Below are positions 19,210-37,755 of a stretch of 64,000 nt of DNA, one piece after another. The notes under the pieces were generated by a model that did no database searches, had not been told where the DNA came from, and saw nothing but the letters and a program-made list of their open reading frames with translations. The first letter of the stretch is position 1. Each line of letters begins with the position of its first letter. Origin of the DNA: Pseudoalteromonas piscicida (GTDB taxonomy: Bacteria > Pseudomonadota > Gammaproteobacteria > Enterobacterales > Alteromonadaceae); NCBI RefSeq assembly GCF_000238315.3, contig NZ_CP011924.1, positions 124,001 to 188,000 of the forward strand, in the 5' to 3' direction. A program made the translations under genes and the position numbers.

Positions 19210-19237
19210 AAGCGCCGAGCTATTTTTTGCGGCGCTT
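19210..19237. terminator. Hairpin at the 3' end of the polymer-synthesis operon
   Basis: AAGCGCCG (19210-19217) and CGGCGCTT (19230-19237) form a perfect 8-bp stem with a 12-base loop, overlapping the stop codon of the 19220-23287 gene. There is no U-tract after the stem on either strand, so its strength is uncertain. Confidence 0.45.
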
Positions 19238-22200
19238 ACCATTTTGTAACTTCAACCATCCAGGTTTTTGCGAGCGATTTAATTCACTTAAAATAAGGGT
19301 TGCCTTTTCTATTGTGATCCTAAAATCGGCGATATCTTTGTATACCTGAACTGCTATTTTCTTTCTTTTTACCGCCGCGCCGGCATCTAAAAATGACTCG
19401 ACCAATTTATTCAAAAAGCGTGTTAGTGGCGAGCGAGCCCGAGTATTATCTTTACTTTCTAAGCGTTGCATTTGTTGCTCTAGTTTGCGCTTTATTTGCG
19501 TCAATTCGGCTTGGCTAAATTCGCTTTGAGCATTGGGCAACGTTTCGAACAAGTCGAGCTTGTCAGCTAAGTATTGGCATTCAATCGCGCTGAGCTCCTC
19601 TTGTTGTAAAATTCTACTTAAGCCATTTCTAAACTCAGTTTGTGTCACGCTGCGGCGGCTTAGGCGCTCGCAATGCTGATGAAACAACTGCCACTTTTGC
19701 CACATGTACACATAGCCCAGTCCCGCACCTTTGATATTTTGCATGCCGACGATAATTTGGTGTTCATTTGGCAGTGCTTGTTTGGCAATGATTTGGTTTA
19801 AGGCATCAGGCTTGATGTCACTATCATGCACTAACGTACATTTGAGGGCGGCAAGTTGCTCTGCAAGCGCTGCTGTTTGCGAAAGCCTGGTGCTCAGGTC
19901 TTCAACTTCCAAAAGCGACTGGGCAATCGTCCACGCCTCAAAACGCTTTAGAGTGGGCTGATGTGTGTCGTCTTCGCTATTAAGTTGCGATTGCAGCGAG
20001 TCGAGACTTGAAAACGCAGACTCAGGCAGCTTGGTTGCCGTAGTATTTAATGATGCGATCAGTGCATCTCGCGATAATGTGAGCCTAAAGCGTGTGAGTA
20101 AATCGCGCAGTGCGTCGTGGTCGTTATTGCTGAAAATACTGTGTAAGAGATTATCCAGTGCAACCATAAAGTACTTAAAGAAGCCATCGATATTGGTGCC
20201 GATCACCACAATGGCATCAAAATGCAGATCATTGGCCAGAATGTTCGCAAATACTTGCGAGCGCGCTACGCGGTCGTTGCGATTATTAATCAGAGCAACA
20301 ATTTGCCCCTGCTTTCCCTGTTCGACGATGTTTAAGCGTTTCCAATTTTCTATCGTTGCTAGGCGTTCGTTGGCAGACATGCTGTTGATAAAGCTTTGAC
20401 TGATTGCACCAATCTTTGCGGTCGTAAACTGCTGAAGCACGCCAACATCGGGAATAACCCTAGAAGCCGTTTCTTTGAACACATAGTCTTTATTGATGCC
20501 AATATATTGCGCCATTTTGCAGACTAAGGCGATGTTATCCGGATGCTCAACATAGGGGTACTTTGCGAGAATGTCAGGCGTGATTTGATACCCATCACCC
20601 CAATGAATTTGAATGAGCGAAGTGTTTTTTTGCTCTGCCGCCAAGTTGAGCACGGAGGCCATATTCTGCTCGGCGGTGAACACTTGGGTGTTGTAGCCCA
20701 AAAAGGCAGACATTTCTTTTGCTACATCCAAACCTGTTGGGCCCAAAATATCTTCATGATCCGGGTAGGCATTAGTAATGGTAGCAAAATTGTCTTTCAT
20801 CCAGCGCACTAGAATTTTCACATATCTCGGAGTCAGGCCCATACATTCCCACAGGAAAACGTCCGCTTTTACCTGTTTTGCAAAATGTAGCACATCAGCT
20901 TGCTCCCAAATACTCGCTTTATCGAAAGGCCGAAATAGCGGGATCTCATATTGCTCACCAGAAATTTTTGAATAGATAAGCATCGCTTCACAGCCCGTGG
21001 TCTTGCTCACGACTCTCAGCGCCAAGCTGCTAAATAAAGCTGACTTCAGCCTCTCGGTTCCTGATTTTCCTCGTGTTCCCCAGCCGCCAATGGACACCGG
21101 AATGTGTTTGCGATTTTGCTTTATTCTTTTACTGACATAAATATGCCGAGTCCAAAAGTAGCTAATAAATGCAAGCACAAAGAAAACCAGCTGCGAAATA
21201 CTATTTTGATAAATGGCATCGACGTATTCTTTAAAGCTGCTCCAAATGGTGAGTAGCGCTGAGGTGGCACCAGAGCGAGTATAAAGTTGCTGAATGTCTT
21301 TCGCGACAGGAAAGGGCGTTTTTGCGATGTCGCCATAGGCACTAAAGCGTAGCGAAAACCCCAGCGTGTTAAGTGCATCCAAATACTTACCTTGCTCAAG
21401 TTCGTTGCCTTTTCGTAAGCGGTCTAGCTCTGCAAACTGCCATGTTATGGTCCAGTACGCCTTAAGGCGTCGCCACAAAGTTGATGGCGGAGTAACGGCT
21501 AAAATACCATCCGGCGTATAGGTTTTGGCGTCTTCTTTACTGTGGTCATTAGTCAGTACACTTAGCAAAAAGTCGAGTAATGGTAGATGTGGTCGACTCG
21601 TTTGTTCGGCGATATTAAAGAGCAACTCCCCCGGCACTTTTGTTTCGCTAATTTCCGCGGTAGTGCAGCTAGGGACGTGGATCGATACGCTGGGCTTTTT
21701 CGCTTTGGTATGAGAATAGCTTTGACGTTTATCGGTACTTGGTTGTCTTATTTCGTGTATTACTCGCCACAACCTTCTTGCTTGACGATAGCCTTGTTGG
21801 ATACGCCAGCCAGCTTTTGTTTTTGAGGCATTAAGACTTTGACCGCGCTGCGCGATATAAGAAAGTGAGCGGCCCAGTTCATCACGAGACCAAGTTGCCA
21901 GTGCGTCACTTTGTTCGTTGGCTTCAAGGGAAGCGTTGAGCTGCGCGATGATGGCTTGATGATAGAAGCTACCTAGCTGCTCTCTGGCTCTGGCGATATA
22001 ACGGCAAACGGCGATGTTCGTTTCGTTCGATAAGCAGTCATTTAAGGTATCAATAAACCTTTTGAAGCAGAGATCGGCTTGATTTGATTCAAGTTGCATA
22101 TTCAGCATAATACGCGCGCTTTGCTCAAGCGCTAAGCGCTTGAGCTGCATACTAAAGTCGCCTGTTAGCACACGTTGCCACAGTAAAAATGCAAAATCGT

Positions 22201-23287
22201 GTTGGCAAAAGCGGTCGGCGGATAACTGTTTTATCAAGGTAAAAAGTACGGCATTCTCATTCTCTTGCTCAAACCGCTTGGCGATTAACTCTTGTGCAAA
22301 CGATGTGGGATAAAACTCGACAAACTCTAGCGTAACCTGGCGCACCCTAGGTAAGGTGTGCTCGCTGAGTGCACAAAGCATATTGAGATCTTTTTCTGTA
22401 AGCTTTGGCTGGCTGACAATAATTTTAGGAAAGATACTCAAAATATAGAGTACTTCGGCATCAACTTGCTGACTATTTTCAATATCGTTCGCTTCTTCAA
22501 GCAAAGCCCACATGTAGGCACGAATAAAGGTGGGGCGTTGATGTATTAAGATCTCTAAAATATCGACGATTGCCTGATAGGGCATATTGTCAGACTCAAG
22601 CAATTCAATAAGTTTGGCGATAAGCTCTGCGTCTAATTCTGAGTCGACCTCATAGTTGTTTAAGGTTGCGACCATATTCACCAGTGCGCGGATCAAGCCA
22701 TGACGAATATGTTGATTTTGACTATGGGCGAGTAAATTTAAGCAAAATGGCTGTAAATCCAAGCGTTGCCAGGCATTTTCTAGGGTATCGTGGTGAGCAC
22801 GTAAATATCGATTCGTTAGCGCCCCAAGTTTGGCGATTAAAAATTTAACCTGTTGCTCAATAGCGGCAACTTGATGTTGATATCGAGCAACTACAGCACC
22901 TTCGTCAAACCATCGTGAAAAAGCTTTTTTATCTTGTTCTAACGCGGCTTTAGTGGTGCCAAGTTCTTGAGCATATGCAATAATATGAAGCTCTTTTTCA
23001 CTGGCAAATTCAGACTTAGCGATACGCTGTACAAATCCGGTGTGGGATACCTCAAGCAGCAAAATTTGCTCATGTAGAGTCTCAATTTTATGGCGTAAAA
23101 AGGCGATAGATTGAAGTACCAGCCAGTCGGTTTCATCCTCGTTTTCAGGGCGATTGTAAATGAGTTCCCATGCACACAATTCGTCGATCAACGCACTGTA
23201 TTTATGTTGATACAAGTTCAGCCAAAACTTTTCAGTTTCGGCAAAAAATAGGGCTTCTAATTGACTCTTTAAGGCTTCAACGCTCAT
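19220..23287 (-). CDS. pgsB: PgsB/CapB-like polyamide ligase fused to large helical N-terminal domain
   Basis: 1355 residues; typical PgsB is about 400. Residues 1 to about 690 are helical and HEAT/ARM-like (repeated Leu-rich pairs such as VDILEILIHQRPTF). A membrane helix follows near 699-717. A Mur-ligase-type domain starts with the nucleotide loop GGWGTRGKSG at 734-743. After it come SKTTGCEAMLIY, LWECMGLTPRY, NAYPDHEDILGPT, EHPDNIALV, LINNRNDRVARSQ and GMQNIKGAGLGY, in the same order as in Bacillus PgsB (GIRGKST, KTTG, ECMA, EDHMDVMGPT, NCRPDRVDR, GNIHGA). This supports ATP-dependent amide-bond synthesis at the inner membrane. Its start overlaps the preceding gene by 11 bp. The actual monomer is unknown. 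Confidence 0.85.
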   Translation of the reverse strand: MSVEALKSQLEALFFAETEKFWLNLYQHKYSALIDELCAWELIYNRPENEDETDWLVLQSIAFLRHKIETLHEQILLLEVSHTGFVQRIAKSEFASEKELHIIAYAQELGTTKAALEQDKKAFSRWFDEGAVVARYQHQVAAIEQQVKFLIAKLGALTNRYLRAHHDTLENAWQRLDLQPFCLNLLAHSQNQHIRHGLIRALVNMVATLNNYEVDSELDAELIAKLIELLESDNMPYQAIVDILEILIHQRPTFIRAYMWALLEEANDIENSQQVDAEVLYILSIFPKIIVSQPKLTEKDLNMLCALSEHTLPRVRQVTLEFVEFYPTSFAQELIAKRFEQENENAVLFTLIKQLSADRFCQHDFAFLLWQRVLTGDFSMQLKRLALEQSARIMLNMQLESNQADLCFKRFIDTLNDCLSNETNIAVCRYIARAREQLGSFYHQAIIAQLNASLEANEQSDALATWSRDELGRSLSYIAQRGQSLNASKTKAGWRIQQGYRQARRLWRVIHEIRQPSTDKRQSYSHTKAKKPSVSIHVPSCTTAEISETKVPGELLFNIAEQTSRPHLPLLDFLLSVLTNDHSKEDAKTYTPDGILAVTPPSTLWRRLKAYWTITWQFAELDRLRKGNELEQGKYLDALNTLGFSLRFSAYGDIAKTPFPVAKDIQQLYTRSGATSALLTIWSSFKEYVDAIYQNSISQLVFFVLAFISYFWTRHIYVSKRIKQNRKHIPVSIGGWGTRGKSGTERLKSALFSSLALRVVSKTTGCEAMLIYSKISGEQYEIPLFRPFDKASIWEQADVLHFAKQVKADVFLWECMGLTPRYVKILVRWMKDNFATITNAYPDHEDILGPTGLDVAKEMSAFLGYNTQVFTAEQNMASVLNLAAEQKNTSLIQIHWGDGYQITPDILAKYPYVEHPDNIALVCKMAQYIGINKDYVFKETASRVIPDVGVLQQFTTAKIGAISQSFINSMSANERLATIENWKRLNIVEQGKQGQIVALINNRNDRVARSQVFANILANDLHFDAIVVIGTNIDGFFKYFMVALDNLLHSIFSNNDHDALRDLLTRFRLTLSRDALIASLNTTATKLPESAFSSLDSLQSQLNSEDDTHQPTLKRFEAWTIAQSLLEVEDLSTRLSQTAALAEQLAALKCTLVHDSDIKPDALNQIIAKQALPNEHQIIVGMQNIKGAGLGYVYMWQKWQLFHQHCERLSRRSVTQTEFRNGLSRILQQEELSAIECQYLADKLDLFETLPNAQSEFSQAELTQIKRKLEQQMQRLESKDNTRARSPLTRFLNKLVESFLDAGAAVKRKKIAVQVYKDIADFRITIEKATLILSELNRSQKPGWLKLQNGKRRKK

Positions 23288-26200
23288 GTAAATCTTGCTC
23301 TAATAAATGACTTAGCTGTAACGATTCAAAAATAATTTCATCGTGAGCATAGGGGGCAAAAGCGGTTTGCTGTAAGTTGCCTAAACGTACTTGTAGCCCA
23401 ACCTGATGGGTATTGTTAAACCAGTCTTGAGTCCAAGTTACACCTAACCAACCCGCGGTGTTATGACTAAAGTCAAAGCCCGTTTGCCAACCCAATTGAG
23501 TTAAGTATTGCCATGTTGGATTAGGACGGTTCTGATCGGCAAATACATAGCTTGATGTTAATCCGGCATGAAAAATATGGCCTTGATAAAATTGATACCA
23601 ATCAAATGAAAACAGTGCATTGTCGAGCGTTTGCCAATCTTGATTTGACGTCAGTGTAACGCCGGAGCTGAAGTAACTATCAACCCAAGGCTGATAGCGC
23701 AGCCCAGCATGCGCTTGCCAGCCGTGCTTGTGATTATTACGGTAAAAGGTGTACATATCAGGACCAATTTGCTCGTCTGCAATAAATTCGTCCTTGCTGA
23801 TACTGGTGTACGTGTAAAAAGGCTGCCACCACCAAATGCTTCTAAAACCGCTGTTATAACGGTGAATTTGGCCAAACTTTGCCGAAATACTAGAGCTTAA
23901 ATGGGTTTCACTGATTGCCGTTGCATCCTGCCAGCGATTACGCATTCTTGCTTCTGCAAACCAGTTCGACTGCTGTGAGAGCCAATCATATTGACCATTA
24001 ATAGAGAAGGTGTCTTGGTGATGATTATCCATCGTGTAGAAAGTATCGATGCGGTACCAGTTATTCTCATCCTTCACTCTCAATGATACACCTAAATCGA
24101 GTGTGGTACGGCTGGGGCTAGGCTCCGTTGTCTGTACAATGTCGTCGCTATCAATATTCAAAAATCCTTCGACGCCAGTGCTACTTTCATCAGTTTCAAT
24201 GCGAGCTTGCTGAAATTCGGGCTCAGCACTTGTTGGTGTTAACTGTTGCTTGGCTTTTAAGAACATTGGCACTTCAGGTACTAGATTAACGCGGTGCAAT
24301 GTTGGACTTAACGTCCAGATAGACATGCGTGCTAACGTTGGTTGTTGCTGGCCGCTTAGTGAGACTTGTCCTGCTGGGTGAAAATAGGTGGCTTCATTTC
24401 TAATACCATCGGCAAAGGTTTCAATTTTAATCAGACTATCTCGAGTTAATTTCGCCGTGATTGGGGTTGTTTCATCAGAGCGATAAAAAATCTGCCTCGT
24501 ATCCAATGGGATATCACGCCATTGACCTTGGTTGAAGTATTGCGGACGTACGCTCACGCTTTGCCCCGATAGAGGGTTGAGCCAACGTAATTGCAATAGT
24601 CCCTGTTGCGTCTCGATTTGTTTAATGCCGTAATAGAGCGGTTGCGTTGGCTGCAATGAGATCACATCACCTTGATTTGGCCCTACTAGTTCTACATTAG
24701 CAGGCGGTGCTACGATTTGCTTGGCGGAAGAGTAGGCAAACTTTACCCTTACTTGCACTTGTTGATACTCAGAAAAATCAATAGTCAGTATTTCGTTTGC
24801 TCTGAGCGGCAGGCCTGACGGCTGATTTTCTGTGAGGTGTGCGGTGATCTGGTCACCAACGCTTTGCGCCGCAAGCGTATCAACTTTTACCTTTTGTGTG
24901 CCAACATAGCTAGTGTATTGTTCCGCAGCAAGCCATTGACCATAGCGCATCAAGCGGGCATATAAATCGGTTAAAACGGCATCACCCGATAAGCTTGGCT
25001 GTAGACGTTGAAGGACCCTGTTGTAGCTTTCATTAGACAATATTTGCTGACTCAATTGATACAAGGCATTTATCGCAATTTCTTTAGCGCTGAGCTCATT
25101 TGCTATACGCGCTTCAGCGCGACTAACCAAGAGTGCAGACTTATCTGTAAAAGCCGGAGTATTCGCGGTGTCTGGTTGCACCCGGATCTCTACAAACAAC
25201 TCATTATTACTGAAAAGCGTGAGGCTTTCATTTGCTGCTAATTGAATATATTGCTGTGATGCAATGGATAACCGAGTCGCTTGTGGTTGCAATTGTAAGT
25301 TTGCTGCAATATCACTAAATATGGGTAAAAGCCGGGTTTTGGTGTTGTGTTCATACAGTAACCATTGGGTATTTTTGTATTCTTGTCCTTGGTAGGCTGC
25401 ACGTGCACTTAGCTTGAGCGTCAAAGGTGTTTTAGCAACCAGCTTGATTGGTTTATCTGAACTTAGCGGATAGTGCTCAGTTTGATCATCCAGTGACTCC
25501 ACGACTTGTAAACCATAGTGACTGAGGCTGTATTGTGGTTCGGTAAGTTCATTTGTTTGAATTGCCGCGATTTGTTCGGCCTGTTTTGGTGTTAATGCCA
25601 TTTGCTGGCTTGTCCACAGCGCTTCTTGCTGAAGCCCGGAGTCAAGTAGATATGTCAACAGGATATCATTGCATTGATATTGCGTGATATCGGTTTCGTG
25701 GGCAGCGCATAATAGGCTAGCTTGGATATATTCATTCCTTGCTAAATATCTCGAGAGTAGCTCATTGGCAGCGTATTCTCTTAAAGATTGGGCGGTGCTT
25801 TTAAGCAATGACTTTAGTAACACCTCGGCGTTTCCACTGCGTTCTAGCTGAGTCAAAATAGCAATATTAAGTTGCCAAGCCATTAACGTAACTTGCTCAC
25901 TATGACCACTCAAATACGGCTTTAGTTTTGCAAGCGCCATGAGGGGTTTGGTCTTTGCTACCATTTGCAGTTCCGCAAGCACTTTAGTGGCGGTAAACTG
26001 GTCGTGGCTGTCTGTCTTAACGCTTATTTCCGGCGCACTCAGCCCACTCAGTGATAAATGATAAGTGTCCGCTCGATTTTGTTTGCTTCTTGCCAACAGA
26101 CCTTGAACGAGTGGCCCTTGGCCTAGCGTTTCTTGCGTCATGGTCAAGAAGTCGGGAAATGGTTGTAATCGGTTGACTGCTACAGCGATATCAAGCGCTT

Positions 26201-27500
26201 GCGCAGCACCTTCAATCGTCACAGCTTTGGATGCTGGATTTATGTGTAGGGTAAGTCTTTGAAAATGACTGCTAGGCGCAACAAGCAGCGTATGTCGGCC
26301 ATGCTCGCTGGTGATGGTTAAGCGCTCTTGCGTTCTTGCTCGAACATACAAGGTAATTGCATTATCAACTCTCACTATGTTTTCAAGACGATAGTTAAGT
26401 GGCTGAGATGATGTAATGTAATTGACTCTCTGAGCGCTCGAGGTGAGCAGCACTTGCCCAGCGGCGCTGCGGCTGCCCAGTGTTACTCCACTTATCGCAA
26501 CATGATGAGTGAGCGGTTGAGGGGAGCTTGGCGTTAAAAAGTACAGTGTAGAGGCAATATCGTTAAGCATTTGCTTACGTTTGACCGCCAATGCTGTATC
26601 AGTAGCGCTAAAAGTGAGTGGAGAAGTATCACCATTCATGTAAAGGGCGCTAAGCTGCTCGTTCAGCTGTTTATTCCAATACGGATTAAATAACGACTCT
26701 TGCTGCTTTATTCCTGCATTGTCGTCGTAAATACCACGGTGCATTTGTAGTAAGTTAAGGTAGGTAGGCACCGATGTTGTGATAGTGAGGTAACTACCTT
26801 GCGGGACAGCAATATAATCTTGGTTAGATAAGCCGACTTTAGGCTCAAGGTACTCATCCGCTTGGATATCTGATATTGCAATGGTGCTGATAACCTCACC
26901 GTTAACTTTAATTGTGACAGTACCATTTTGCGCAATCGCGTGCAGATCTTTTCGAACCTCTAGTTTGAGCTTTTTAGCGTGCTCAAAGAATACGCTTGTC
27001 ACTTGTGTAGGTTGTAGGTGAAACCAGTGCTCTGTATCTTGTGCTAATTGCAGTATTTGGTCGTCAAGTCCTGGCAGTCTGAGTGCTCTTCGATACGGAT
27101 CTCTATGGCTGTGCATACTGCCTTGCCAAAGCGCGAGAGATTGAGCTTTATCACCTGTGTATGCAACCTGAATTAAACGGTTTTGTGCTGTTGCACTCAG
27201 TTGGCAGCGGGATTGAATACATAACCAATCGGACGTTGGAATGGCACGTTGTAGCTTTGGAGTTTCCCCTGCAAAAAACTCGAATGTCTCGAGGGCATTT
27301 GGTGTCGTTACTAACCACGCGTGACTTGGCAAAAACAGCCACGCTTTTTGCTGCGGTGCAAAGTGCTTGTTAGCATTGGCTTGGATAAATTGCATACGTG
27401 ACAGATCAATCCATTGGGCAGCCGTTTGTATCCCTACCTCATTGGCTCGAGATATCGTTGCAAACAGCAGTAGTGTCATTATAAAAGTGATTGCACGCAT
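23277..27500 (-). CDS. Large exported protein with helical repeats and C-terminal outer-membrane beta-barrel
   Basis: 1407 residues. It has a signal peptide (ITFIMTLLLFATISRA), about 450 residues of beta-rich sequence, then a TPR-like helical section (about 500-680: LAKLKPYLSGHSEQ, LKSLLKSTAQSLREYAANEL, AHETDITQYQCNDILL). Further beta domains follow. The last about 240 residues have alternating aromatic/polar strands (NWYRIDTFYTMDNHHQD, WWQPFYTYTSIS, GWQAHAGLRYQPW, QVGLQVRLG) typical of a porin barrel. The plan resembles PgaA, BcsC and PelB, which carry polymers across the outer membrane. In this operon it is the natural exporter of the PgsBC product. That role is inference from architecture and context. 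The start overlaps the previous gene by 22 bp. Confidence 0.75.
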   Translation of the reverse strand: MRAITFIMTLLLFATISRANEVGIQTAAQWIDLSRMQFIQANANKHFAPQQKAWLFLPSHAWLVTTPNALETFEFFAGETPKLQRAIPTSDWLCIQSRCQLSATAQNRLIQVAYTGDKAQSLALWQGSMHSHRDPYRRALRLPGLDDQILQLAQDTEHWFHLQPTQVTSVFFEHAKKLKLEVRKDLHAIAQNGTVTIKVNGEVISTIAISDIQADEYLEPKVGLSNQDYIAVPQGSYLTITTSVPTYLNLLQMHRGIYDDNAGIKQQESLFNPYWNKQLNEQLSALYMNGDTSPLTFSATDTALAVKRKQMLNDIASTLYFLTPSSPQPLTHHVAISGVTLGSRSAAGQVLLTSSAQRVNYITSSQPLNYRLENIVRVDNAITLYVRARTQERLTITSEHGRHTLLVAPSSHFQRLTLHINPASKAVTIEGAAQALDIAVAVNRLQPFPDFLTMTQETLGQGPLVQGLLARSKQNRADTYHLSLSGLSAPEISVKTDSHDQFTATKVLAELQMVAKTKPLMALAKLKPYLSGHSEQVTLMAWQLNIAILTQLERSGNAEVLLKSLLKSTAQSLREYAANELLSRYLARNEYIQASLLCAAHETDITQYQCNDILLTYLLDSGLQQEALWTSQQMALTPKQAEQIAAIQTNELTEPQYSLSHYGLQVVESLDDQTEHYPLSSDKPIKLVAKTPLTLKLSARAAYQGQEYKNTQWLLYEHNTKTRLLPIFSDIAANLQLQPQATRLSIASQQYIQLAANESLTLFSNNELFVEIRVQPDTANTPAFTDKSALLVSRAEARIANELSAKEIAINALYQLSQQILSNESYNRVLQRLQPSLSGDAVLTDLYARLMRYGQWLAAEQYTSYVGTQKVKVDTLAAQSVGDQITAHLTENQPSGLPLRANEILTIDFSEYQQVQVRVKFAYSSAKQIVAPPANVELVGPNQGDVISLQPTQPLYYGIKQIETQQGLLQLRWLNPLSGQSVSVRPQYFNQGQWRDIPLDTRQIFYRSDETTPITAKLTRDSLIKIETFADGIRNEATYFHPAGQVSLSGQQQPTLARMSIWTLSPTLHRVNLVPEVPMFLKAKQQLTPTSAEPEFQQARIETDESSTGVEGFLNIDSDDIVQTTEPSPSRTTLDLGVSLRVKDENNWYRIDTFYTMDNHHQDTFSINGQYDWLSQQSNWFAEARMRNRWQDATAISETHLSSSISAKFGQIHRYNSGFRSIWWWQPFYTYTSISKDEFIADEQIGPDMYTFYRNNHKHGWQAHAGLRYQPWVDSYFSSGVTLTSNQDWQTLDNALFSFDWYQFYQGHIFHAGLTSSYVFADQNRPNPTWQYLTQLGWQTGFDFSHNTAGWLGVTWTQDWFNNTHQVGLQVRLGNLQQTAFAPYAHDEIIFESLQLSHLLEQDLHER

Positions 27501-28231: not shown

Positions 28232-30470
28232 CTTGCCACCAGTTTAATGTTGCATCAGGCTGTTCATGTTCCTCTAATACACTTATCCAAACATCATGTG
28301 AAAAGCGAAGCGTCATGGTTTTAGGCGATGTTAAGTCTTGAAACAGCGGCAAAGTAATACTTGGGTACTCGTACAGCTCCGCGTGATTAGGGTTAAAAAA
28401 CATCCTCGTTTGTGCTGGGTTTAGATGTAGTACAAAGTGTTTAGCTAAAATGGTGTATTCATCGCTTGGGGTGATTACCTTAGTGCTATCCAGAGCGGTT
28501 GCTACCGTAATTTCATCTTGAGGGTCGGCACTAAACACTTTGACGACCAAAGCGATAGGTTGCAAGTTATCCTCGCTAACAGCAACAGTGAGTGGCGTTG
28601 CTTTCGCTACTTTGTACAGGCGGATCTTCCGCACGGTTCTTGGGATCCCTTGATTGATGAAAAGTGCTTGGGTATTAGCTAACTCCTCTATTTGTAAGCT
28701 GTTTAGCGGAACTTCAAATAGTGTTGGTTTACGCTTTTGCTTCACAATCACACTGCTTGGGTAGCTTGTTGCTTTACCTAGCTTAAAGAGTGCAGATTTA
28801 GCTACCTGACGATATTCAAACTCCATTTGCGGTACTGAGTTATCAAAGTAAGCTTGCTCAATGGGCACCAACGCGATATCCGATACAGCTAAAAGCTGAT
28901 CTAAGTCTTTGGATCGGTATTGAGGCAGCAACTCTGGTACTTCAGGTGGCGCTTCAAATAAGCGCACCGATGCTATCTGTTTTTGTGTATGAAAGAGGTA
29001 ATGGTTGTCAGCCTTTTGGCTAAACCATGCATCAATTCCCTGATAAATCGGACTTTCAGGGTCGCACACTGGGTCACAGCGATGATTCAGATAATTAAAT
29101 GTTGGGCTGCGGGCTTGCAGCTTTACCATCGCGTCTTCGGCTTCAATTTTGATTTGATTAACGTTATCTGGTATTGCCAAATAACGCTTCTCTGCGGTTG
29201 GTAAGGTTTGTCGCTCTGTGGTTTCAGTTATCAGTCTATCAAACAAAGCTTGCTCTGCCGTTGCGGTAAAAACATAGTCCTTGATCCGCTCATTGTTGCT
29301 GTAGAGGCTCACAGAGAGAGTGCTGCCAATGGGCGCACGCCACTCTAAAGCGATATCGCTTTTAGGAGAGACTTGATAGTAAACCGGCGTTTGCGCGTTG
29401 AGCATATAATAATAACTATGCAGCGGGACTATAGGGTCGACGCCATTGCTAAATACCCGAATGCTGGTGGGGGCGTTTGCGCTAATGGTAACAAGGCCTG
29501 TAGGTAAGTTGCTCAGTCTAGATTGGGTAGTGGCTAGCATCTCAGGCGTTAGTGGCTTTGGCGCGTTGAGTTGGCGTAAATCATGCCAAACAAAAGTAAG
29601 ATTTGCATTTTCGGGATGGCTTAATAAATATTCAGTGTGTTCATAGACGCGAAAACTTGCGCTTAGCTGCTCAGAAATAAACAAACTATCTAAGTCTAGC
29701 TGGGTCGAAAAATCATGATTAAGCACATTGTAGGGGAGTGACTCATATAACAAGTCAGCACGAAAGTCGATGTTAGGCACGCCCTGTGGCGCTAGCTTTT
29801 GCCAATCTAACATGACCGAATTGTATTTTTCTTCGTTGGTTAAGGCGTTTTCACCTATGGTGTGGTAATTCGTCATGCGTTCACGCCACTCAGTTGGCCT
29901 TTTCAGCCATGCTTTGGCAGGGTCGATAATACTGTTACTGGTTTGGGCATGGACGCGTACTACCACGCCTTTAAGCTGAGCATTTTCTGGTATTAGCTTT
30001 AACGTGATGGTTGCAGCCTGTTGTAACTCTTCACGATTTAAATAAAAGGATTGCCCAGACGCCACGGCCAACGCTTCACGGTTTTCAATGATCTGTTTTA
30101 CTTGTTGCTGAAAGTCGTTCGAGGCGGCTTTAGCTGCATGGTGATAAGTACCGCGATAAATAATCGCTCCTTTTGCATCAAGTAACTGATATTCAATAGC
30201 ATAGTTGACAGGCTGATCATCCAACGGCTGCGATTCGAATATTCCATTAGACAACACCCGGAGAGACATGGTCCGAGACGCAGAAAAGGAAAACTTCAGT
30301 GCACTATCGGTTTTTAGCCAATGCACATTTGAGCGAATATTAAACAAGGTCGAGGTATTTGAAGGCTCCGCCGATTTTACCCACACAAATAAAGTGACGG
30401 CGAACCAAACAAAAAGTAGCAGCAAAGCCATAAAAATAGCAAATCGTAATATCTGCTTAATCCAGTACAT
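28218..30470 (-). CDS. Single-pass periplasmic protein of the polymer operon
   Basis: About 750 residues. The ATG at 30470 is preceded by GAGGGG five bases away, which makes it a better start than the in-frame ATG at 30497. One N-terminal membrane helix (FAIFMALLLLFVWFAVTLFVWV) is followed by a long, mainly beta-predicted periplasmic part with no recognised family. A pair of close Cys (HRCDPVCDPES near residue 480) may form a disulfide. It sits between the PgsC-like protein and the secreted 250-residue protein. An obvious hypothesis is a periplasmic adaptor linking the synthase to the outer-membrane barrel protein; nothing in the sequence proves this. Confidence 0.7.
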   Translation of the reverse strand: MYWIKQILRFAIFMALLLLFVWFAVTLFVWVKSAEPSNTSTLFNIRSNVHWLKTDSALKFSFSASRTMSLRVLSNGIFESQPLDDQPVNYAIEYQLLDAKGAIIYRGTYHHAAKAASNDFQQQVKQIIENREALAVASGQSFYLNREELQQAATITLKLIPENAQLKGVVVRVHAQTSNSIIDPAKAWLKRPTEWRERMTNYHTIGENALTNEEKYNSVMLDWQKLAPQGVPNIDFRADLLYESLPYNVLNHDFSTQLDLDSLFISEQLSASFRVYEHTEYLLSHPENANLTFVWHDLRQLNAPKPLTPEMLATTQSRLSNLPTGLVTISANAPTSIRVFSNGVDPIVPLHSYYYMLNAQTPVYYQVSPKSDIALEWRAPIGSTLSVSLYSNNERIKDYVFTATAEQALFDRLITETTERQTLPTAEKRYLAIPDNVNQIKIEAEDAMVKLQARSPTFNYLNHRCDPVCDPESPIYQGIDAWFSQKADNHYLFHTQKQIASVRLFEAPPEVPELLPQYRSKDLDQLLAVSDIALVPIEQAYFDNSVPQMEFEYRQVAKSALFKLGKATSYPSSVIVKQKRKPTLFEVPLNSLQIEELANTQALFINQGIPRTVRKIRLYKVAKATPLTVAVSEDNLQPIALVVKVFSADPQDEITVATALDSTKVITPSDEYTILAKHFVLHLNPAQTRMFFNPNHAELYEYPSITLPLFQDLTSPKTMTLRFSHDVWISVLEEHEQPDATLNWWQDETP

Positions 30471-33400
30471 AACGCCCCTCATGAACCGCTTTTGCATAAG
30501 TGGCTAAATCAATAACGCGATTTCTTCTTGGTAAGTATAGCGCGAGCAATACGTTATCTCGGGTAAACATTAATCCCAGCTCACCATTTCTATGCGTGCT
30601 GAAGGCGCTTATTTTACATTGGCTTTCAAATTGACAAAGCGCTTGGAGCATTGGTAAATGTTGGGTGGTGGCATAACGTCCTGTGGCCACATTAAGTGCG
30701 TCAATAAATTGCGCACTCGCCTCATGCCAATCATTTGGAGAGAGGGCAAGCAAATCGATTACTTTGAGCTTAGGTGTGTGTGCAACGGCTAAAAGGCGTT
30801 GCAATAAAGCATCGTTGGTAATGGCAAAGTGCGATTTAAAATCCGATGCCAACCACAATGCCGCTAACTCACTTTTTGGTGCGAACAGCTGATATCCTGA
30901 CTGCGGTGTGGTACCGAGTTCTAAGCCTCTTGTTGCTTGTTGTCCTAATACGGTTTGAGTATTAACACCAAGATCAGCTAGCACCCTTTGTAGTGTAGCA
31001 ATGGTGTCATTATGAATAGGGTTAGGCGTTGTAAATTGGTACGCAAGCGCTGAAGGTCTGATGCTTGCAGGCGCGCTATGACTGCGGATCTGTAAATTAA
31101 GTAAGGGGTTGTCGTAAAAGTAGCGCTGTGCACTTTGATACACCACATTAAATAATGACCGCACGTTGTCGGCTGCCATGACATTTGCATCGATGCTGGT
31201 ATACGGGTGAGCACCAGCGATTGCCAGTAACTTTGCGTGGGTGGCCGTAAACAACTGCCCAGAGAACTCCAAGGTGTTACTTTCAAAGAGTGGTCTAGGC
31301 ACCGCAATGGTGAGGGATGGTTTAGCCAGCAAGGCAATAAAGTACACCCCTTGACCCAAATCATAGGCAGATTTGGTATCTAAAGGAGAAAGCGCAACGA
31401 ATTGCCCTTGATTATTTTCAACTAAAGTTAATTGGTACTGTAATAGGTTTGCTACGCGATTTATCTGACTCAGTCTTACCTCAAGCGTTTCCGGCGTTGT
31501 CACTATCTCAAGATTTTGGGTGATAGCAAATAACGGCCTTAACACTTCATATTCCCACAGTGCAGCACTGGTATCGCTCAGTGCGCTAAATGCACCGCTG
31601 CCTTTGGCGCTAATGTGACTGGAAAATGCTTCAATAAGTGCCTGTATGCTCTCATCGCTTGTGCTTATTTTATCTATGTCTTTGTCGATACGTTGCAGGC
31701 CATATGCGCTTAGCAACGACGAATAGCTATCCGAGCTTAAATACGCCTCAATCATTTGGCCATGGAACTGGCTGTAAGGTAAAGGTGCATTTGCCGCGAG
31801 ACCAAAGTGTGCATCGTTGATGTTAAACAAGGTAGCAAGTTCAGATTGTTGTACTGAGCTTGGCACACTGTTAAATATCCACATCTGTGCGTCTTCTTTT
31901 AAACTGTGTTGGTGCATCAATTGGCTTACTTGCTGATTAATTTCTCTGAGTTGGACTACCTCTGGGGTATCCATCGCGATGAAAAAGTCACTGTAGAACT
32001 CGCTTTGTTTGCCGTTCTTATTGCCACTTTGGTTAGGTCGCGCATTGCCAAATGCCATAGCCTGACTTTGCCAATACGAAAACAATATCCCACCAGCTTC
32101 GCTGGCAAGACGCTCAGCGGTGGGGTAAGGCACACTGATGATATGGGCTTTTTGAGCAGCTAAATTAATGATAAACAGGCCGCGTTTATGATCTTGTTGA
32201 TTGTCTTTTATTACTAAAAATTGTGTCGTACGCTGCAAAGAAAAGTCGGCTTGACGCAGTAAGGTGGCGGCCTCGGCATAGCGTGACTCACTATCCTGCT
32301 TAAGCAACCTAATTGCTTGCTTAAAGTGGCTACGTTGCTGCTCGGTCACATATTGGCTGACATTAACGTTAGCCGCATTTTGAGTATACAGCTGGCTCTT
32401 GTAATTACTGATCACTTGGCCGAGCGTTAAATCGCTGGCTGTTTCATTTATCGCTAATGTATTACTTTGTACGAATAGGCTTGGAATAACCATAATTGCA
32501 AAACCAATACATATGGCGATAAAGCCACCAACAATTGAGGTTTGAAAAGTTGCACGGATCACAAGGCCTAGCGCATTTTTTTGGTAAATTTTAAGGGCGA
32601 GTAAGGTCGATAGCATGTAGCCAAAAGCAAAGGTATCGGTCACTTTTAAGGTTGGAAAGTAACCGACGACGACGTAGTTTAAAATCAGTTTGTAGACAAA
32701 GCCAATATTAAAAAACAGCAGCATGAGTCGTGCGCCTTCGATATTGGCGTGTTTTAAACGAGTAAAGTTTAAGACTACATATCCAAAGACTAAAATAACC
32801 GCTGTTTCTACGAATGATGTGAGCAGCTTAGTGGGTTGCATCAGTTGCAGAGCTAGCAGCGCAGGCAGCATAATGCCATTAAATTCCCAGCCGTACTTTA
32901 AATTAGCCCTTGATGCGATAAACGCGGTGATCACCAAGATAATATAAGCTTTAGGGGCTGCAATAATGGAGGCCGCAACAGCTTCGTACATGACGGCAAG
33001 ATTGGCAATGCTAAAGTTGGTGAACGTCATCAATCCAAAACGAATGATGATATAGGTAACAATCAACTGAATAGCAGTGACTTTTATGCCATATTTAAAG
33101 CCGCCATTCCACATTACATTGGCGGTCAAGGCGATGATAATCAGCCCGAGACTATAAAGCTGTGCGGCGTAATCAAAAGTGATGTCCCATTGTGTTAAGT
33201 ACGCGGCGACCAGTGGCCAAAACAGCACATCCATGGTAACTCGGACAATAATGCTTAACAAAACGATGGCAAAAAATCGGTCGCGGCCAAACATTTCTGC
33301 ATAGCCCAGTCGCTCAACAAGTGTTTTGGCAAAAAACCGCATTAAGCCATAAACGACAATGGCCTCAACAATGATCACCCAAGCCGATGTTGGGCTCACG

Positions 33401-33561
33401 ATAAATAAAGGGACTAGGTAACCTGGAACCACTAAACCAGTTAACGGGAAGCCAAACCTTAGATTGAAAAATGCAACAACCGCGATGCCTATCCAAACAC
33501 ACGTGATAACGGACTGCCCAAGTCCGCCCGCACTTGGGAATAGCGTCAGCGTCCAGTCCAT
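30457..33561 (-). CDS. pgsC: PgsC/CapC-like membrane protein, duplicated core plus large periplasmic domain
   Basis: 1034 residues; Bacillus PgsC is 149. The first about 370 residues are polytopic membrane sequence. FPLTGLVVPGYLVPLF near residue 40 matches the PgsC AGLVVPGYLALVF, and the following YAEMFGRDRFFAIVLLS then VRVTMDVLFW matches its YGRRKFAATLITG/LLFDYCYP region. A second related segment, FNGIMLPALLALQL near 228, matches the PgsC VIVPGLIAN half, with extra helices between. Residues from about 390 onward are a soluble domain not found in classical PgsC. The family acts with PgsB in polymer synthesis and transfer through the inner membrane. The start is immediately after the stop of the preceding gene (0 bp). 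Confidence 0.85.
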   Translation of the reverse strand: MDWTLTLFPSAGGLGQSVITCVWIGIAVVAFFNLRFGFPLTGLVVPGYLVPLFIVSPTSAWVIIVEAIVVYGLMRFFAKTLVERLGYAEMFGRDRFFAIVLLSIIVRVTMDVLFWPLVAAYLTQWDITFDYAAQLYSLGLIIIALTANVMWNGGFKYGIKVTAIQLIVTYIIIRFGLMTFTNFSIANLAVMYEAVAASIIAAPKAYIILVITAFIASRANLKYGWEFNGIMLPALLALQLMQPTKLLTSFVETAVILVFGYVVLNFTRLKHANIEGARLMLLFFNIGFVYKLILNYVVVGYFPTLKVTDTFAFGYMLSTLLALKIYQKNALGLVIRATFQTSIVGGFIAICIGFAIMVIPSLFVQSNTLAINETASDLTLGQVISNYKSQLYTQNAANVNVSQYVTEQQRSHFKQAIRLLKQDSESRYAEAATLLRQADFSLQRTTQFLVIKDNQQDHKRGLFIINLAAQKAHIISVPYPTAERLASEAGGILFSYWQSQAMAFGNARPNQSGNKNGKQSEFYSDFFIAMDTPEVVQLREINQQVSQLMHQHSLKEDAQMWIFNSVPSSVQQSELATLFNINDAHFGLAANAPLPYSQFHGQMIEAYLSSDSYSSLLSAYGLQRIDKDIDKISTSDESIQALIEAFSSHISAKGSGAFSALSDTSAALWEYEVLRPLFAITQNLEIVTTPETLEVRLSQINRVANLLQYQLTLVENNQGQFVALSPLDTKSAYDLGQGVYFIALLAKPSLTIAVPRPLFESNTLEFSGQLFTATHAKLLAIAGAHPYTSIDANVMAADNVRSLFNVVYQSAQRYFYDNPLLNLQIRSHSAPASIRPSALAYQFTTPNPIHNDTIATLQRVLADLGVNTQTVLGQQATRGLELGTTPQSGYQLFAPKSELAALWLASDFKSHFAITNDALLQRLLAVAHTPKLKVIDLLALSPNDWHEASAQFIDALNVATGRYATTQHLPMLQALCQFESQCKISAFSTHRNGELGLMFTRDNVLLALYLPRRNRVIDLATYAKAVHEGRYVLD

Positions 33562-35535
33562 CTATTCGTCATCCCACTCTTCAGGCAAAAGTTGCTCGTT
33601 AACCGCAAGTTGCTCTGACAAGTGTGTTAAAAAGGCTTCTTTATCATCTAGCTGAGATAACTGCTCGCCAAGGTCAATAAATTCAAATAACACCCCGCTG
33701 GTTTCAAATGGGGTACTGGCGTTAAGGCTGGTTGATTGTTTGAGTAAGGCGCGAATGCTTAGTAAATAAGTTCGATTGTCTAAATATACGGGTAATACGA
33801 TTTTGCCACGTTTTAGGGTTAAATAGCGCAGCTTTCCTTTAGCTTGTTCACTATCCATCTCGGTACAGCGACACAGTAAGTCTAAGGCGGACATGTCGAA
33901 AATAGACAGCTTATGCTCTCTCGCAAAGCGTTCAAGAGATTCATTTACCTGCACAATTTGGCCAAATAAGTTATATAAAATACTGGCACTGTGAAGCTGG
34001 TTGAAGACATGCTCCAATGAGGTGAGTTTTTGATCCATCTCATTAATTGCATTTTTGATTTTATGACTTAACGGTTCCTTTAGAGAAAAAGTCAGCGCCC
34101 GAGTCAGTGTGCTTTTGAGGTTTTTTTGCTCAGCAGAAAATACTTTATAGTGGAATAATAATTCACCAATTTGATGTGCAAAGAGATTTACATTTTTAAT
34201 AAATGCTTGCTCATCAAAGTTATCTTGAGGAGTGACGGTTAGCGCCCAAAAACCCCGAACATCTCCTGCGTACATCAAGGGTGCGATATACTGCTGCTCA
34301 TCTTCCGCGAGATGTTGGAAGAAAGGACGAGTAATTTTGATAGCACCAAAGGCTTTGATTGCATCGGAATAAGGTACTCGCTCGTAATCTCGTCGCATCT
34401 CTAAGATATCACTGAGCTGGCAGTGTATCGCGCGTATTTCAGTTACTCTGTGGTCACCCTCTAAGCGAGTGAGAAAGATACTTCTTCTCAGATTAAGCTG
34501 CTGATTAACCAGTTGGATTATTGCATCCCAAGGTTCATTATGCTCAAGAAAGTGCCGTGGTAGATATCGACCCATCATACGTTGCTGGATCAGGGCGATG
34601 AGAGACTTTAAGTTTTCTTCTTCTGACCATTTCAAAGAGATAAACACCCAAAGTAGCGTCAGCCATATCAAAGATAGCAGCTCACCAAGCGGCAATAACA
34701 CGGAGTACCAATGATGCGCAGCAAGGCCACTTATGATCAGTAATATGCTGGTGGATACCGCAATGATGACATTGGTCTTGGTCGCATTTCTTTGGTACCA
34801 CACTAAGAAAAATATTGATGCTAGTACCATGAGTGCGACTATCGTCACTTTATTTAAAGGCTGAATAAAGCTGTCGGATGCAAAGCTATTGGCGATAAAT
34901 GCCTGTAGGTAAACAGGCGGAAGTTCTTGCGCACCAAAATAAGCATTACTATTCAAGCGTGAAAACTTTGAATGCTGAGCAACTAAGATGACCTTTTCGC
35001 TGAGTTGTGCTGTGAATAGGTCACCATCAAGTACTCTCTGCGCACTGAATTTTGGTAGTGAATAATAAGGCAGCGAGTAGTCTATGATTTTGTTGAGGTA
35101 TTCACCATGCTGCGGAAATATTTTATCCCACAGTATGTCACACGTGTTTGCTGGTGGTGCAAGGCTGATTGCGCTGCCATACCAATTTTCTGTTTCCAAC
35201 AGACAAACCGATTGCGTATTGAATGGATAGTAAATCGAGCCATCGTATTGTTGTGGCGAAAGTTCGGTATTTGCAAAGAACACAACGGCTTTTGGTTGAT
35301 AGTCAGAGAGTATTTTTACCAACTGCTGATGTTGTTGTTGTAAGTTTTCCGCTTCAATCACGACTACTTGCGTTGCTTGTGTGGTGTTGAGCTTAGAAAA
35401 CCATTGTAACCCGATTAGGTTTACCTGTTTATACAAGCCGGACGCTGAGGCGATCAACAAAATAGCGAATAAGCTCATAAATAGCCAAAACTCACGTTGG
35501 CGTTTTATAAAGTTTAATTGACTAAAAACCGACAT
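33562..35535 (-). CDS. CHASE2-like membrane sensor without recognised output domain
   Basis: 657 residues. An N-terminal helix (FWLFMSLFAILLIASASGLY) leads into a periplasmic region resembling CHASE2 (VVVIEAENLQQQHQQLVKIL, KAVVFFANTEL, KVILVAQHSKFS). Three further helices follow near residues 227-310. The cytoplasmic part looks like a GAF-type domain (YIAPLMYAGDVRGFWALTV near 420) and a coiled segment. No HisKA/HATPase, GGDEF, EAL, phosphatase or DNA-binding motif is visible. CHASE2 proteins normally sense extracellular signals and feed an enzymatic output. Here it sits inside the polymer operon, 15 bp after the CapA gene, so it may regulate the synthase by direct contact, an inference. Confidence 0.7.
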   Translation of the reverse strand: MSVFSQLNFIKRQREFWLFMSLFAILLIASASGLYKQVNLIGLQWFSKLNTTQATQVVVIEAENLQQQHQQLVKILSDYQPKAVVFFANTELSPQQYDGSIYYPFNTQSVCLLETENWYGSAISLAPPANTCDILWDKIFPQHGEYLNKIIDYSLPYYSLPKFSAQRVLDGDLFTAQLSEKVILVAQHSKFSRLNSNAYFGAQELPPVYLQAFIANSFASDSFIQPLNKVTIVALMVLASIFFLVWYQRNATKTNVIIAVSTSILLIISGLAAHHWYSVLLPLGELLSLIWLTLLWVFISLKWSEEENLKSLIALIQQRMMGRYLPRHFLEHNEPWDAIIQLVNQQLNLRRSIFLTRLEGDHRVTEIRAIHCQLSDILEMRRDYERVPYSDAIKAFGAIKITRPFFQHLAEDEQQYIAPLMYAGDVRGFWALTVTPQDNFDEQAFIKNVNLFAHQIGELLFHYKVFSAEQKNLKSTLTRALTFSLKEPLSHKIKNAINEMDQKLTSLEHVFNQLHSASILYNLFGQIVQVNESLERFAREHKLSIFDMSALDLLCRCTEMDSEQAKGKLRYLTLKRGKIVLPVYLDNRTYLLSIRALLKQSTSLNASTPFETSGVLFEFIDLGEQLSQLDDKEAFLTHLSEQLAVNEQLLPEEWDDE

Positions 35536-35550
35536 GCTTTTTTTACTCTC

Positions 35551-37755
35551 TTATTGTTGGCTAAAAGTGAGAGTCAGCTCAGTCGTCTTCGCTACTTTTA
35601 CTTTAATAAATTCTTGGCCATGGATTTGTGCGCTTTGCCACTGACCGTTTTGAAGTTGCACAGGGCGCTGCCACGAGATCATCGCAATATCATCTAAAAA
35701 TAAGGCACTTTCACCACTACTTGGTGGCGCCATGGAGAGGCCAAACTGGACTCCACGAGCAGGCAGCCCTTCATCACCAAGCACAACGGAATCGTCAGGT
35801 AAGGTAATGTCTTGTCTAAACGTTTGCCACTCATAGCTCCCCGCTGGCTTTAATTGGGGCGTTGACTCAGAAAAGATAAGGCTATCTTCTGATGTTAAGA
35901 TACGAATATCAGCCTTAAACTCACCAGCGTTCTCTCCTTTGGCATAACCAAAGAGCGAGAGCTCATGGTAAGCCTGTGCTGTGCTCGGCGCTGGTGTAAT
36001 AGGCATGGTACGAATTGTGTGTTTGAACGGCACACGCGTTGGTGTTTCGTTAAATTGCGTTCGTTGTAAACAAAGCCCTTGTACGCCACGATATTTGCCG
36101 ACTAAACACGGCGCGATATCGTCGGCCTCAATTAACCAACGAGAGACTTCCCCTTTTTCGTTATCGCTGTCCCAGTCTTCAAAATCCCCAAAGAACAATA
36201 AGTCCCGTCCAAGCACAATCTCTGCTTGAGCATCACTAGCTGTGAGTTTACTAAGGAACTCAGCACTGCTTGAATATTGGCGTAAATCGACAATATGCTC
36301 ACCGGCTTCTAAGGTAATAACTTGTTGCTCGGTTGCTTTTGCTTGAACCGGTTTATCAAAGGTGACTTCTGCAAATCCCGAGTGCAATGAGATACCGACT
36401 TCGGGTGAAGAAAATTCAGCGATACGTTTTAGTAGGGCATTGGCAAGGTCGCCACTTACAAACTTAGGAACATAATCTTCTAGATAAACGGGATAGGCTT
36501 TTAGTGCACTGATTTTAGGTGTGCCTGCAGTTTCTAACTCTACCACAGCTATCAGTCCTAAAAAGGTTTCAAGACGATTTTGCTCAAACACAAAGTTGCC
36601 TAGCCCAAGTATGCTTGGTACGCCATTGTATAAGCCAAACCCTTGCGCAACGTGAGGATGATGGGCAATCATCAAGTTAGCGCCATTTTTGGAAAGTAAA
36701 TCAAATCGGTTTGAAATATACGCCGTTGGTGCGTATGAATACTCATCACCGCCGTGAAGCTGAGCCACAACAAAGCGGCCGTTGTTACTGGCTTGCACCA
36801 CTGTTTCTTTCATACCATTGGTATCTGTTAGATCGGCAGCTCCCCCTTTAGCGTCTGATGCCACATAAGTGACGGTATGTTGATCGCCTGTAATAGAAGT
36901 CGCGGAAACAAAGTCTATGGTTGCTTCACCAAGGCTTAGACTATAGGGCTTAAATGCCTCTGCCGCGCTTGTGCCTGCGCCACTGTGTTTTAGTCCGGCT
37001 TGCTCGACGTACTTCAAGGTATCGTTCAGTCCAGATGCTCGATAGTCATAAACGTGGTTATTGCCAAGTGCGATATAGTCAATACCCAAATCATTGAGGG
37101 CAACTAATGACTCTGGCAGACTAAAAAATGCAAACTCTTTACTTGGATGGACCGTGGTTGGGTTTTTTAGGATTGGAGACTCCAAGTTAACCGAAGCAAA
37201 ATCGACATGTTTAAATAAAGGATGCATAAACTGCACTAGGGCTTGGGCATCAGATCCTGCGCTTTGGGGCTGGATAAGTCCGTCAGGGGTGCTGGGCAAT
37301 GAGTTTCCCATGGTAATGAGGTCAGGGTTGAAATAACGACGCCCAAACATGGTATCACCCGCAAAAAGTAAGGTTTTTAGCGTGCTAGACTTAGCTTTTA
37401 GTTCAAGCGTGAGCTGCTGTTCATTGTTATTTTGATTCGCTAAGGTAAAAACTAAGGGTAAATAATCGGGGTGAGATATTTCCGCAACATAAGCGCCGTA
37501 TGCTAGAGCCGACAGGTCAAAGATACCATCGCTATTTGAGGTAAATAACTGATCATTTATCGTGAGACTTGCATTGGCAATGGGCGTCGCTGCTGTGTTT
37601 TGCAGCAACACGCTTAAATTGGGCGTCTGGTTATCCCTATCTTATTGGCTTTTATCTTCATCCTTATCGATTTGTGAAGGACCTGTTTCATTTGGGTCCT
37701 CTACTGAGCAGGCCGTGAGCGCAAATAGTAATACTACATTTAAGATTTTTTTCAT
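35551..37755 (-). pseudogene. capA: CapA/PgsA-like lipoprotein interrupted by in-frame TAA
   Basis: The frame starts at ATG 37755 with a lipoprotein signal (MKKILNVVLLFALTAC, Cys16) and an acidic linker. It meets TAA at 37642-37644 after 37 codons, then continues in the same frame to 35551. Downstream are an Ig/CarboxypepD-like domain (LSVLLQNTAATPIANASLTI), then a CapA metallophosphatase-like domain: AGDTMFGRRYF, VNLESPIL, LGNNHVYDY, AQLHGGDEY and HHPHVAQGFG. A C-terminal beta-sandwich follows (about 470-686). Translation could restart at GTG 37611 but would lack the signal. CapA/PgsA is the third core component of poly-gamma-glutamate systems. The stop is either a mutation (for example CAA to TAA), a sequencing error or read through. 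Confidence 0.78.

Follow-up and report, generated by a model that had tools for sequence, protein, structure and literature searches.

The described systems closest to the operon analysed here are the PgsBCA/CapBCA systems for poly-gamma-glutamate (PGA) and, in overall plan, the secretion systems for cellulose, poly-N-acetylglucosamine (PNAG), alginate and Pel, for which the abstract of PMC9384988 sets out an arrangement of synthase, periplasmic scaffold with hydrolase, and barrel, PgaB included. The operon lies on the minus strand of a 64,000-nucleotide stretch of Pseudoalteromonas piscicida DNA (contig NZ_CP011924.1, positions 124,001 to 188,000, from a genome of 5.49 Mb in two contigs), referred to throughout as the window, whose numbering is used below. 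A preliminary description of this locus had taken classical PgsBCA to be a Gram-positive system, which is contradicted by an excerpt of PMC13082233 reporting CapB-CapC-CapA in the usual gene order in the Gram-negative Cloacimonadota, by a title cited in PMC4497714 that presents Fusobacterium nucleatum as a Gram-negative producer, and by short PgsB proteins in two genomes of the class sample described below. CapsuleFinder, in the section of PMC5542703 concerned, takes CapB together with CapC as a PGA capsule and counts such capsules in most phyla, and a passage of PMC11168628 places CapB and CapC among the storage genes of lucinid symbionts; these may be parts of the present operon, because a Thiodiazotropha record carries it.

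Seven minus-strand open reading frames (ORFs) run from 37755 to 19220, with the CapA frame first and PgsB last, placed as in the preliminary description and likewise spaced from a 15 bp gap through 0 bp to overlaps of 41, 14, 22 and 11 bp. As the parts match the plan of the cellulose, PNAG, alginate and Pel systems, the operon is read as a machine that makes a polyamide, poly-gamma-glutamate being the likeliest, and exports it by synthase-dependent secretion; we favour this reading and consider it fairly probable. The features of the operon are as follows.

37803..37832, minus strand: promoter-like site TTGCAA-18-TATAAT upstream of the operon (match 10/12; weak evidence)
37642..37755, minus strand: detached leader of CapA, lipoprotein type (LTAC), closed by an in-frame stop at 37642-37644
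35551..37611, minus strand: open part of CapA (PGA_cap; PF09587, 5.6e-49), an accessory gene of Pseudoalteromonas
33562..35535, minus strand: CHASE2-family membrane protein of 657 aa without a kinase end (far homologues mostly 846-975 aa)
30457..33561, minus strand: PgsC/CapC-like protein of 1034 aa, with two CapC membrane domains and two P3-like domains
31492..32424, minus strand: pseudo-hydrolase domain 1 of PgsC, residues ~380-690 (hhalign to P3)
30460..31554, minus strand: pseudo-hydrolase domain 2 of PgsC, residues ~670-1034 (hhalign to P3)
28218..30497, minus strand: P4, 759 aa, with one N-terminal hydrophobic segment (hydropathy)
27479..28231, minus strand: P3, 250 aa, with a poly-gamma-glutamate hydrolase / carboxypeptidase-like fold (structure model)
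23277..27500, minus strand: P2, 1407 aa, candidate outer-membrane exporter with a predicted 14-strand beta-barrel at 23376-24179
19220..23287, minus strand: PgsB-like amide ligase of 1355 aa, with a long N-terminal part, a ligase domain and a C-terminal extension

Profile searches bore out the proposed homologues of all three Pgs/Cap proteins (PgsB by TIGR04012, PgsC by PF14102 twice, CapA by PF09587), and each of these families is represented by a single gene in the window's genome. PgsB passes the TIGR04012 equivalog cut-off marginally (222.9 bits against 222.7), and its ligase domain occupies residues 705-1040 (window 20168-21175). Over the query part it shares 98% identity with a protein on record for Pseudoalteromonas piscicida. 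The motif residues GTRGKS, WECM and TN-x-x-PDHED are conserved at at least 97% across 119 long PgsB proteins, counted over the window copy and 118 of the 120 listed proteins after two shorter than 1000 aa were left out (alignment A1 shows the window copy with 19 of the 120). HEAT repeats (PF13646) are annotated in some PgsB homologues in precomputed records, and residues 833-895 give a weak match to FolC (0.014). A 412-aa PgsB in one locus, L113, agrees in its motifs with the long form by eye, with no alignment behind the comparison, and adjoins a 154-aa ORF that is CapC-like, again by eye. These two ORFs (L113:1462-3190) lie in front of an unnamed ORF and represent another type of Pgs operon within the class.

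PgsC matches PF14102 (CapC) twice, at 103.5 bits against a cut-off of 27, and among 14 control genomes the same model found a match only in Bacillus subtilis. Ten hydrophobic segments lie within residues 14-352 by hydropathy, and the 650 residues C-terminal to this membrane part are made up of two repeats that hhalign relates to each other at 99.4% (E 7e-22). Both repeats are related to P3, domain 1 at 95.9% and domain 2 at 96.2% by hhalign, against 0.1% for six other profiles of the operon used as controls, and the P3 of one locus (L136) matches the PgsC profile directly (hidden Markov model, 7.9e-7). The position equivalent to P3 H149 is arginine in PgsC, as R539 of domain 1 in 77/79 and R826 of domain 2 in 79/79 proteins, and the position of P3 D84 is glutamate in 76/79 and 78/79 respectively; the counts cover 79 of 80 rows, one open-end row having been dropped, and alignment A4 shows the window copy with 45 of the 80. 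Because of these substitutions the PgsC domains are unlikely, judging by sequence, to hold zinc as P3 would, and arginines in the old active site would suit the binding of a polyanion. Lone proteins with the P3-domain signature (hhalign 98.5%) were observed in three sampled genomes; these secreted proteins (L122:1108-2184, L123:898-2220 and L124:1132-2205) occur in genomes without a full long PgsC and match no hydrolase family in Pfam. P3 and the PgsC domains may both have arisen from this family.

P3 had been labelled simply a secreted protein in the preliminary description, which undersold its PGA-hydrolase fold and overlooked the P3-like domains fused to PgsC. Its structure model is confident (predicted local distance difference test score, pLDDT, 92.4), and the best match in a fold search of the PDB is the phage poly-gamma-glutamate hydrolase PghP (3a9l, E 1.2e-5), with Atu2144 (2odf, 5.3e-5) next and another PGA hydrolase of phage origin (21dc, 9.3e-5) third. 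By VIA-align the five highest Z-scores belong to 2odf (14.1), 2q7s (12.8), 3a9l (12.5), 21dc (11.8) and 5onj (11.7), with 165-184 residues aligned at 3.0-4.1 A and carboxypeptidases next at ~10.5; 2q7s is an N-formylglutamate amidohydrolase and 5onj is YndL with PGA. The zinc ligands of PghL are His41, Glu46 and His102 according to a passage of PMC6506827. The P3 motifs PH80xxxD84xxT and QxH149G match the corresponding PghL motifs in order, as judged from sequence, and a glutamate near the C-terminal end lies in IE223LSxxxRK, close to the IEMSxxxRK of YndL/PghL. H80, D84, H149 and E223 are conserved in 69/69 clean rows, obtained from 71 by dropping L101 (wrong ORF) and L099 (open end); with the two unclean rows included, H80 and H149 are found in 70 and D84 and E223 in 69 (alignment A2, window copy with 50 of 71 rows). 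Two cysteines, C184 and C245, are also conserved. From the fold matches and the conserved residues resembling zinc ligands, P3 would probably be active as a zinc amide hydrolase. Named homologues are recorded as 'hypothetical' or 'uncharacterized', one with 'Lipoprotein' added, and searches of PDB sequences with PgsB, PgsC and P3 returned no matches.

The C-terminal end of P2 is modelled as a 14-strand beta-barrel, in agreement with the earlier expectation of a protein ending in an outer-membrane barrel. The nearest structures are the porins CymA and OmpG, with the exporters BcsC, PelBC and PgaA lower down among other barrels, and a PDB sequence search with the P2 end returned just four chance-level rows, all of one cytokine receptor (E 0.42-0.88); alignment A3 shows the window copy with 48 of 68 P2 rows. 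In two Legionella species (L108:16483-21839, and L109) the place of P2 is taken by two consecutive ORFs of ~1120 and ~680 aa, and the ORF first taken there as PgsB appears to be the C-terminal half of a divided P2. P4 has a single hydrophobic segment, residues 20-38, and a large remainder without a further one by hydropathy, and its second half has a weak profile match to P2 (hhalign 88.7%; alignment A5, window copy with 46 of 71 P4 rows).

A first alternative is that no long polymer is made, and that PgsB and PgsC add a short glutamyl or other amide decoration to an envelope component, for example peptidoglycan, lipid or lipopolysaccharide, and that P2, P4 and P3 would then place or trim this decoration. 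The weak FolC match recalls the Mur-ligase-like superfamily, members of which often add few residues, and the bare passing of the equivalog cut-off by PgsB points the same way. However, a PgsC-type partner is present and duplicated, the P3 fold is of a polymer-hydrolase type, and a barrel within the operon suits export better, such that decoration is considered unlikely, although it is the best placed of the alternatives.

The CHASE2-like sensor of the preliminary description held up in part, with solid domain matches in some relatives and a weak one in the window. The window copy scores 15 bits against CHASE2 where 26.3 is the cut-off (E 0.018), and neither CHASE2 nor HATPase_c is found in it at E<=0.01; in a scan of 31 family members, CHASE2 was found in 15, HATPase_c in 13 and HisKA in 1. 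Uncut homologues outside Pseudoalteromonas are mostly 846-975 aa, with 677-681 aa in L091, L108 and L109, and all 47 Pseudoalteromonas copies are 630-683 aa, the window copy ending ahead of the kinase part (alignment A6, window copy with 30 of 73 rows, four cut rows being among those omitted). The control input has thus probably changed in Pseudoalteromonas, with the membrane part retained. In three loci a stand-alone ORF resembling a response regulator lies between the CHASE2 kinase and PgsC (L087:8052-8453, L102:9606-9998 and L140:7409-7777); Pfam identifies a receiver domain in the first only, and the other two look like one.

Conservation of the locus was assessed in a scan of one genome per species, which gave 278 stretches with a gene related to the long PgsC, the best 80 of which were kept: 47 from Pseudoalteromonas and 33 others, termed far loci. 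The far loci include records of Halomonas/Vreelandella, Marinobacter, Pseudidiomarina, Thiodiazotropha, Bermanella, Mariprofundus, Desulfobacter, Sulfurovum and the two Legionella species. The order CHASE2 protein-PgsC-P4-P3-P2-PgsB is present in 47/47 Pseudoalteromonas loci, PgsB by its start only as it runs off the stretch. With profiles built from Pseudoalteromonas alone, the 33 far loci yielded PgsC in 33, the CHASE2 protein in 26, P4 in 26, P3 in 24, PgsB in 21 and P2 in 18. Many far loci are short contigs, and the counts were therefore repeated where the flank is long enough: the CHASE2 protein is in place in 24/26 loci that extend 1.5 kb or more upstream, P3 in 24/25 that extend 3.3 kb or more downstream, and an ORF the size of P2 in 21/21 that extend 8 kb or more downstream. 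Neighbouring genes of the six overlap by a median of 1 to 22 bp, depending on the pair (64-71 loci per pair). Four further stretches have all six positions filled in the same order, P2 by profile in two and by size in two, although two of them (G136 and G457) probably duplicate the records of L091 and L087 and do not count as independent of the far loci; in another of the four, G121, the simple ORF caller missed P3 where its profile matches at 3.4e-56. There was no gene after PgsB common to the three loci with sequence there.

In a sample of 274 genomes of the class, own genome included, a full-length long PgsC occurs in 4, and the same four carry long PgsB and strong P3 matches on one contig each. 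Two other genomes of this sample have a short PgsB, and one (G256) has a P3-like gene without a long PgsC or PgsB match, its product being the orphan protein at L121:1498-2499 (E 4e-44). In a sample of 398 genomes of the phylum, again including the own genome, long PgsC occurs in 6 and is accompanied by long PgsB in 6/6, the five genomes other than the window's belonging to one family; the two genes share a contig in just 2/6, because the remaining four assemblies are fragmented and have them on different contigs. The genes expected to stay together in other genomes do so, as a core of six.

CapA stands apart from this core. Its frame starts at ATG 37755 and first encodes a lipoprotein-type leader, but the in-frame stop interrupts it, at a position where the frame is open in nine inspected relatives. 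The remaining open part begins at GTG 37611, and a leaderless product would hardly reach the envelope; a strain-specific loss or a sequencing error is possible. By tblastn CapA is present in 42/47 Pseudoalteromonas loci and was not found in the other 5, and a profile built from 43 ORFs chosen by short motifs, one more than the tblastn loci, matched 0/33 far loci in a search confined to the loci, of which 20 extend 5 kb or more upstream of PgsC. CapA was accordingly rejected as a core part. The conserved unit is six genes with CapA as an accessory, and of the seven-gene machine first proposed, the combination of amide ligase and barrel is uncontradicted by the tests made and the operon is kept, at six genes instead of seven.

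The frequency of CapA in Pseudoalteromonas bears on a second alternative, a surface-anchored capsule made by classical PgsBCA synthesis, in which P2 and P4 hold the polymer on the cell and P3 releases it. The 42/47 loci with a CapA family gene fit this, as does a Bacillus hydrolase that releases PGA, described in a passage of PMC8228158. Nevertheless, any polymer synthesized at the inner membrane still has the outer membrane to cross, the operon holds no other exporter, and CapA was found in 0/33 far loci, leaving the capsule quite unlikely.

Under the preferred reading of trans-envelope secretion, PgsB would use ATP to activate a carboxyl group and would link monomers by amide bonds, doing so at the PgsC membrane domains, which would also give the chain its path across the inner membrane. 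The two dead hydrolase-like domains of PgsC would bind the anionic polymer in the periplasm without cutting it, and the single-pass P4 would bridge the synthase and P2, the periplasmic part of which would steer the chain to the 14-strand barrel for release. P3, as a putative zinc amide hydrolase, would trim or clear periplasmic chains, and the CHASE2 protein may detect an envelope signal. BcsZ, AlgL and PgaB trim or clear polysaccharide chains in the periplasm. We put at even chances the broader proposition that this is a separate class of trans-envelope secretion, the polyamide counterpart of the exopolysaccharide systems, in which a duplicated PgsC fused to two dead hydrolase copies forms a polymer-binding sleeve leading to a 14-strand barrel, and which occurs in Gammaproteobacteria, Zetaproteobacteria, Campylobacterota and Desulfobacterota.

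Several observations weigh against this reading. The polymer, its monomer and its export are all deduced from genes and models. PgsB clears its equivalog cut-off barely and the other 9/9 long PgsB of the two genome samples fall below it, and PgsC, at 1034 aa, fails the equivalog cut-off of TIGR04011 (44.6 against 96.45). The best matches of the P2 barrel are porins, a BAM-complex protein and the FadL type score like BcsC or slightly lower, and the tetratricopeptide support for P2 amounts to one weak match (TPR_2 at 0.017 in one homologue). For P3, the TM-scores to PGA hydrolases are just 0.42-0.47 by query length (0.42 for 3a9l), a purine phosphorylase appears eighth in the fold search (8.4e-4), and the second zinc ligand would be an aspartate one residue closer than the glutamate of PghL. 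Further, P3 falls below the gathering score of PF05908 (15.7 against 22 bits), just 3/51 members match that family at E<=0.1, and hhalign with four of its five members gives 2.9%, though collinear; P3 was accordingly rejected as a member of PF05908. A comparison with 23 members of PF05013 gave 2.5% by hhalign and no profile match, and because hhalign with proteins of both families is too weak, the hydrolase case rests on the fold search. In terms of distribution, L085 and L110 are without the CHASE2 protein, L110 has no P4 match within 1.3 kb downstream, L086 is without P3 at the expected place, and a genome with 8% contamination (G501) has long PgsB without a long PgsC match. The operon is also patchy in the genus: PF14102 was found in 19/36 sampled genomes, a count that includes the window's genome, and over the full set of 60 relatives in 21.

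A third alternative, uptake and storage, would have the barrel and P3 import and digest polyglutamate and PgsB/PgsC rebuild a store. A porin-like barrel beside a hydrolase fold is consistent with this, as is the placing of lucinid-symbiont CapB/CapC under storage compounds in the excerpt of PMC11168628. However, there is no amino-acid transporter among the seven ORFs and the pseudo-hydrolase domains fused to PgsC would better suit outward passage, which makes storage improbable. That the locus is an acquired PgsBCA operon of the ordinary kind, flanked by genes that have nothing to do with it, accords with the presence of the three Pgs/Cap families, but is largely refuted by an order and overlaps kept across distant classes, by the loss of CapA rather than of the neighbours, and by an unremarkable GC content, and is very improbable.

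The surroundings of the operon were also annotated. The GC content of the operon does not stand out, and acquisition as a recent island was set aside for want of support from this profile. The promoter scan was uninformative, as sites like the one ahead of the operon number 24 in the region, fewer than the 35.3 of shuffled sequence; a terminator scan was likewise uninformative. By profile, a TyrR-like regulator lies upstream on the opposite strand, and 288 bp downstream, on the strand of the operon, a FabK/nitronate-monooxygenase-like gene follows. Near the operon, and with no evident link to it, a protein at 16760-17776 matches Epimerase_2 and CDP-glycerol glycerophosphotransferase about equally. 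Elsewhere in the window, a ribosomal S15 leader RNA (Rfam RF00114) lies at 61821-61936.

If the secretion reading is correct, Gram-negative bacteria would own a two-membrane export route for a polyglutamate-type polymer, convergent with those for cellulose, alginate, PNAG and Pel, and P2, P3 and P4, which belong to no family, would gain roles. A new extracellular polymer would be predicted in marine and saline bacteria (Pseudoalteromonas, Marinobacter, Halomonas, Thiodiazotropha), and laboratory strains would become available for studying how polyglutamate crosses membranes. The view that no system of this layout had been described stands in part: CapBCA is known in Gram-negatives, as the excerpts cited at the outset indicate, and we could not find a description of the combined layout of synthesis, trimming and its own outer-membrane pore in the open-licence PMC full texts searched with narrow terms, a search outside which subscription papers and preprints lie. 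New here are the predicted P3 fold, the PgsC pseudo-hydrolase domains, the predicted P2 barrel and the kinase parts in far relatives of the sensor.

Compared with PgsBCA/CapBCA, the locus shares the PgsB ligase motifs, the CapC membrane domain and, in most Pseudoalteromonas copies, a CapA family gene. It differs in that its PgsB has 1355 aa against 412 in L113, its PgsC is duplicated and carries two P3-like domains (1034 aa against the 154-aa CapC-like ORF of L113), CapA is not conserved, and a barrel, P4, P3 and the CHASE2 protein are added; membership fails on the PgsC equivalog score and is doubtful on CapA. P3 resembles PghP and YndL (PghL) of PF05908 in its fold, its H...(D/E)...H pattern and its IE(L/M)SxxxRK end, but differs in its score below gathering, the aspartate in place of glutamate, the retained C184/C245 and its encoding in a synthesis operon, while 2q7s and Atu2144 have the highest structural Z with P3 but no profile match. 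The far homologues of the sensor resemble CHASE2 histidine kinases in the CHASE2 and HATPase_c domains found among them, whereas the window copy ends before the kinase part. With respect to the Bcs, Pga, Alg and Pel systems, the synthase here would be an amide ligase and the hydrolase fold an amide-cutting one, the barrel is predicted to have 14 strands and is nearest OmpG/CymA, and a profile scan of the seven ORFs found no glycosyltransferase domain, such that membership of the polysaccharide systems fails on the synthase. The likeness lies in the plan, with an inner-membrane synthase, a hydrolase that in the present operon is a candidate for the periplasm, and a large protein with a barrel end, predicted in this case, within one operon.

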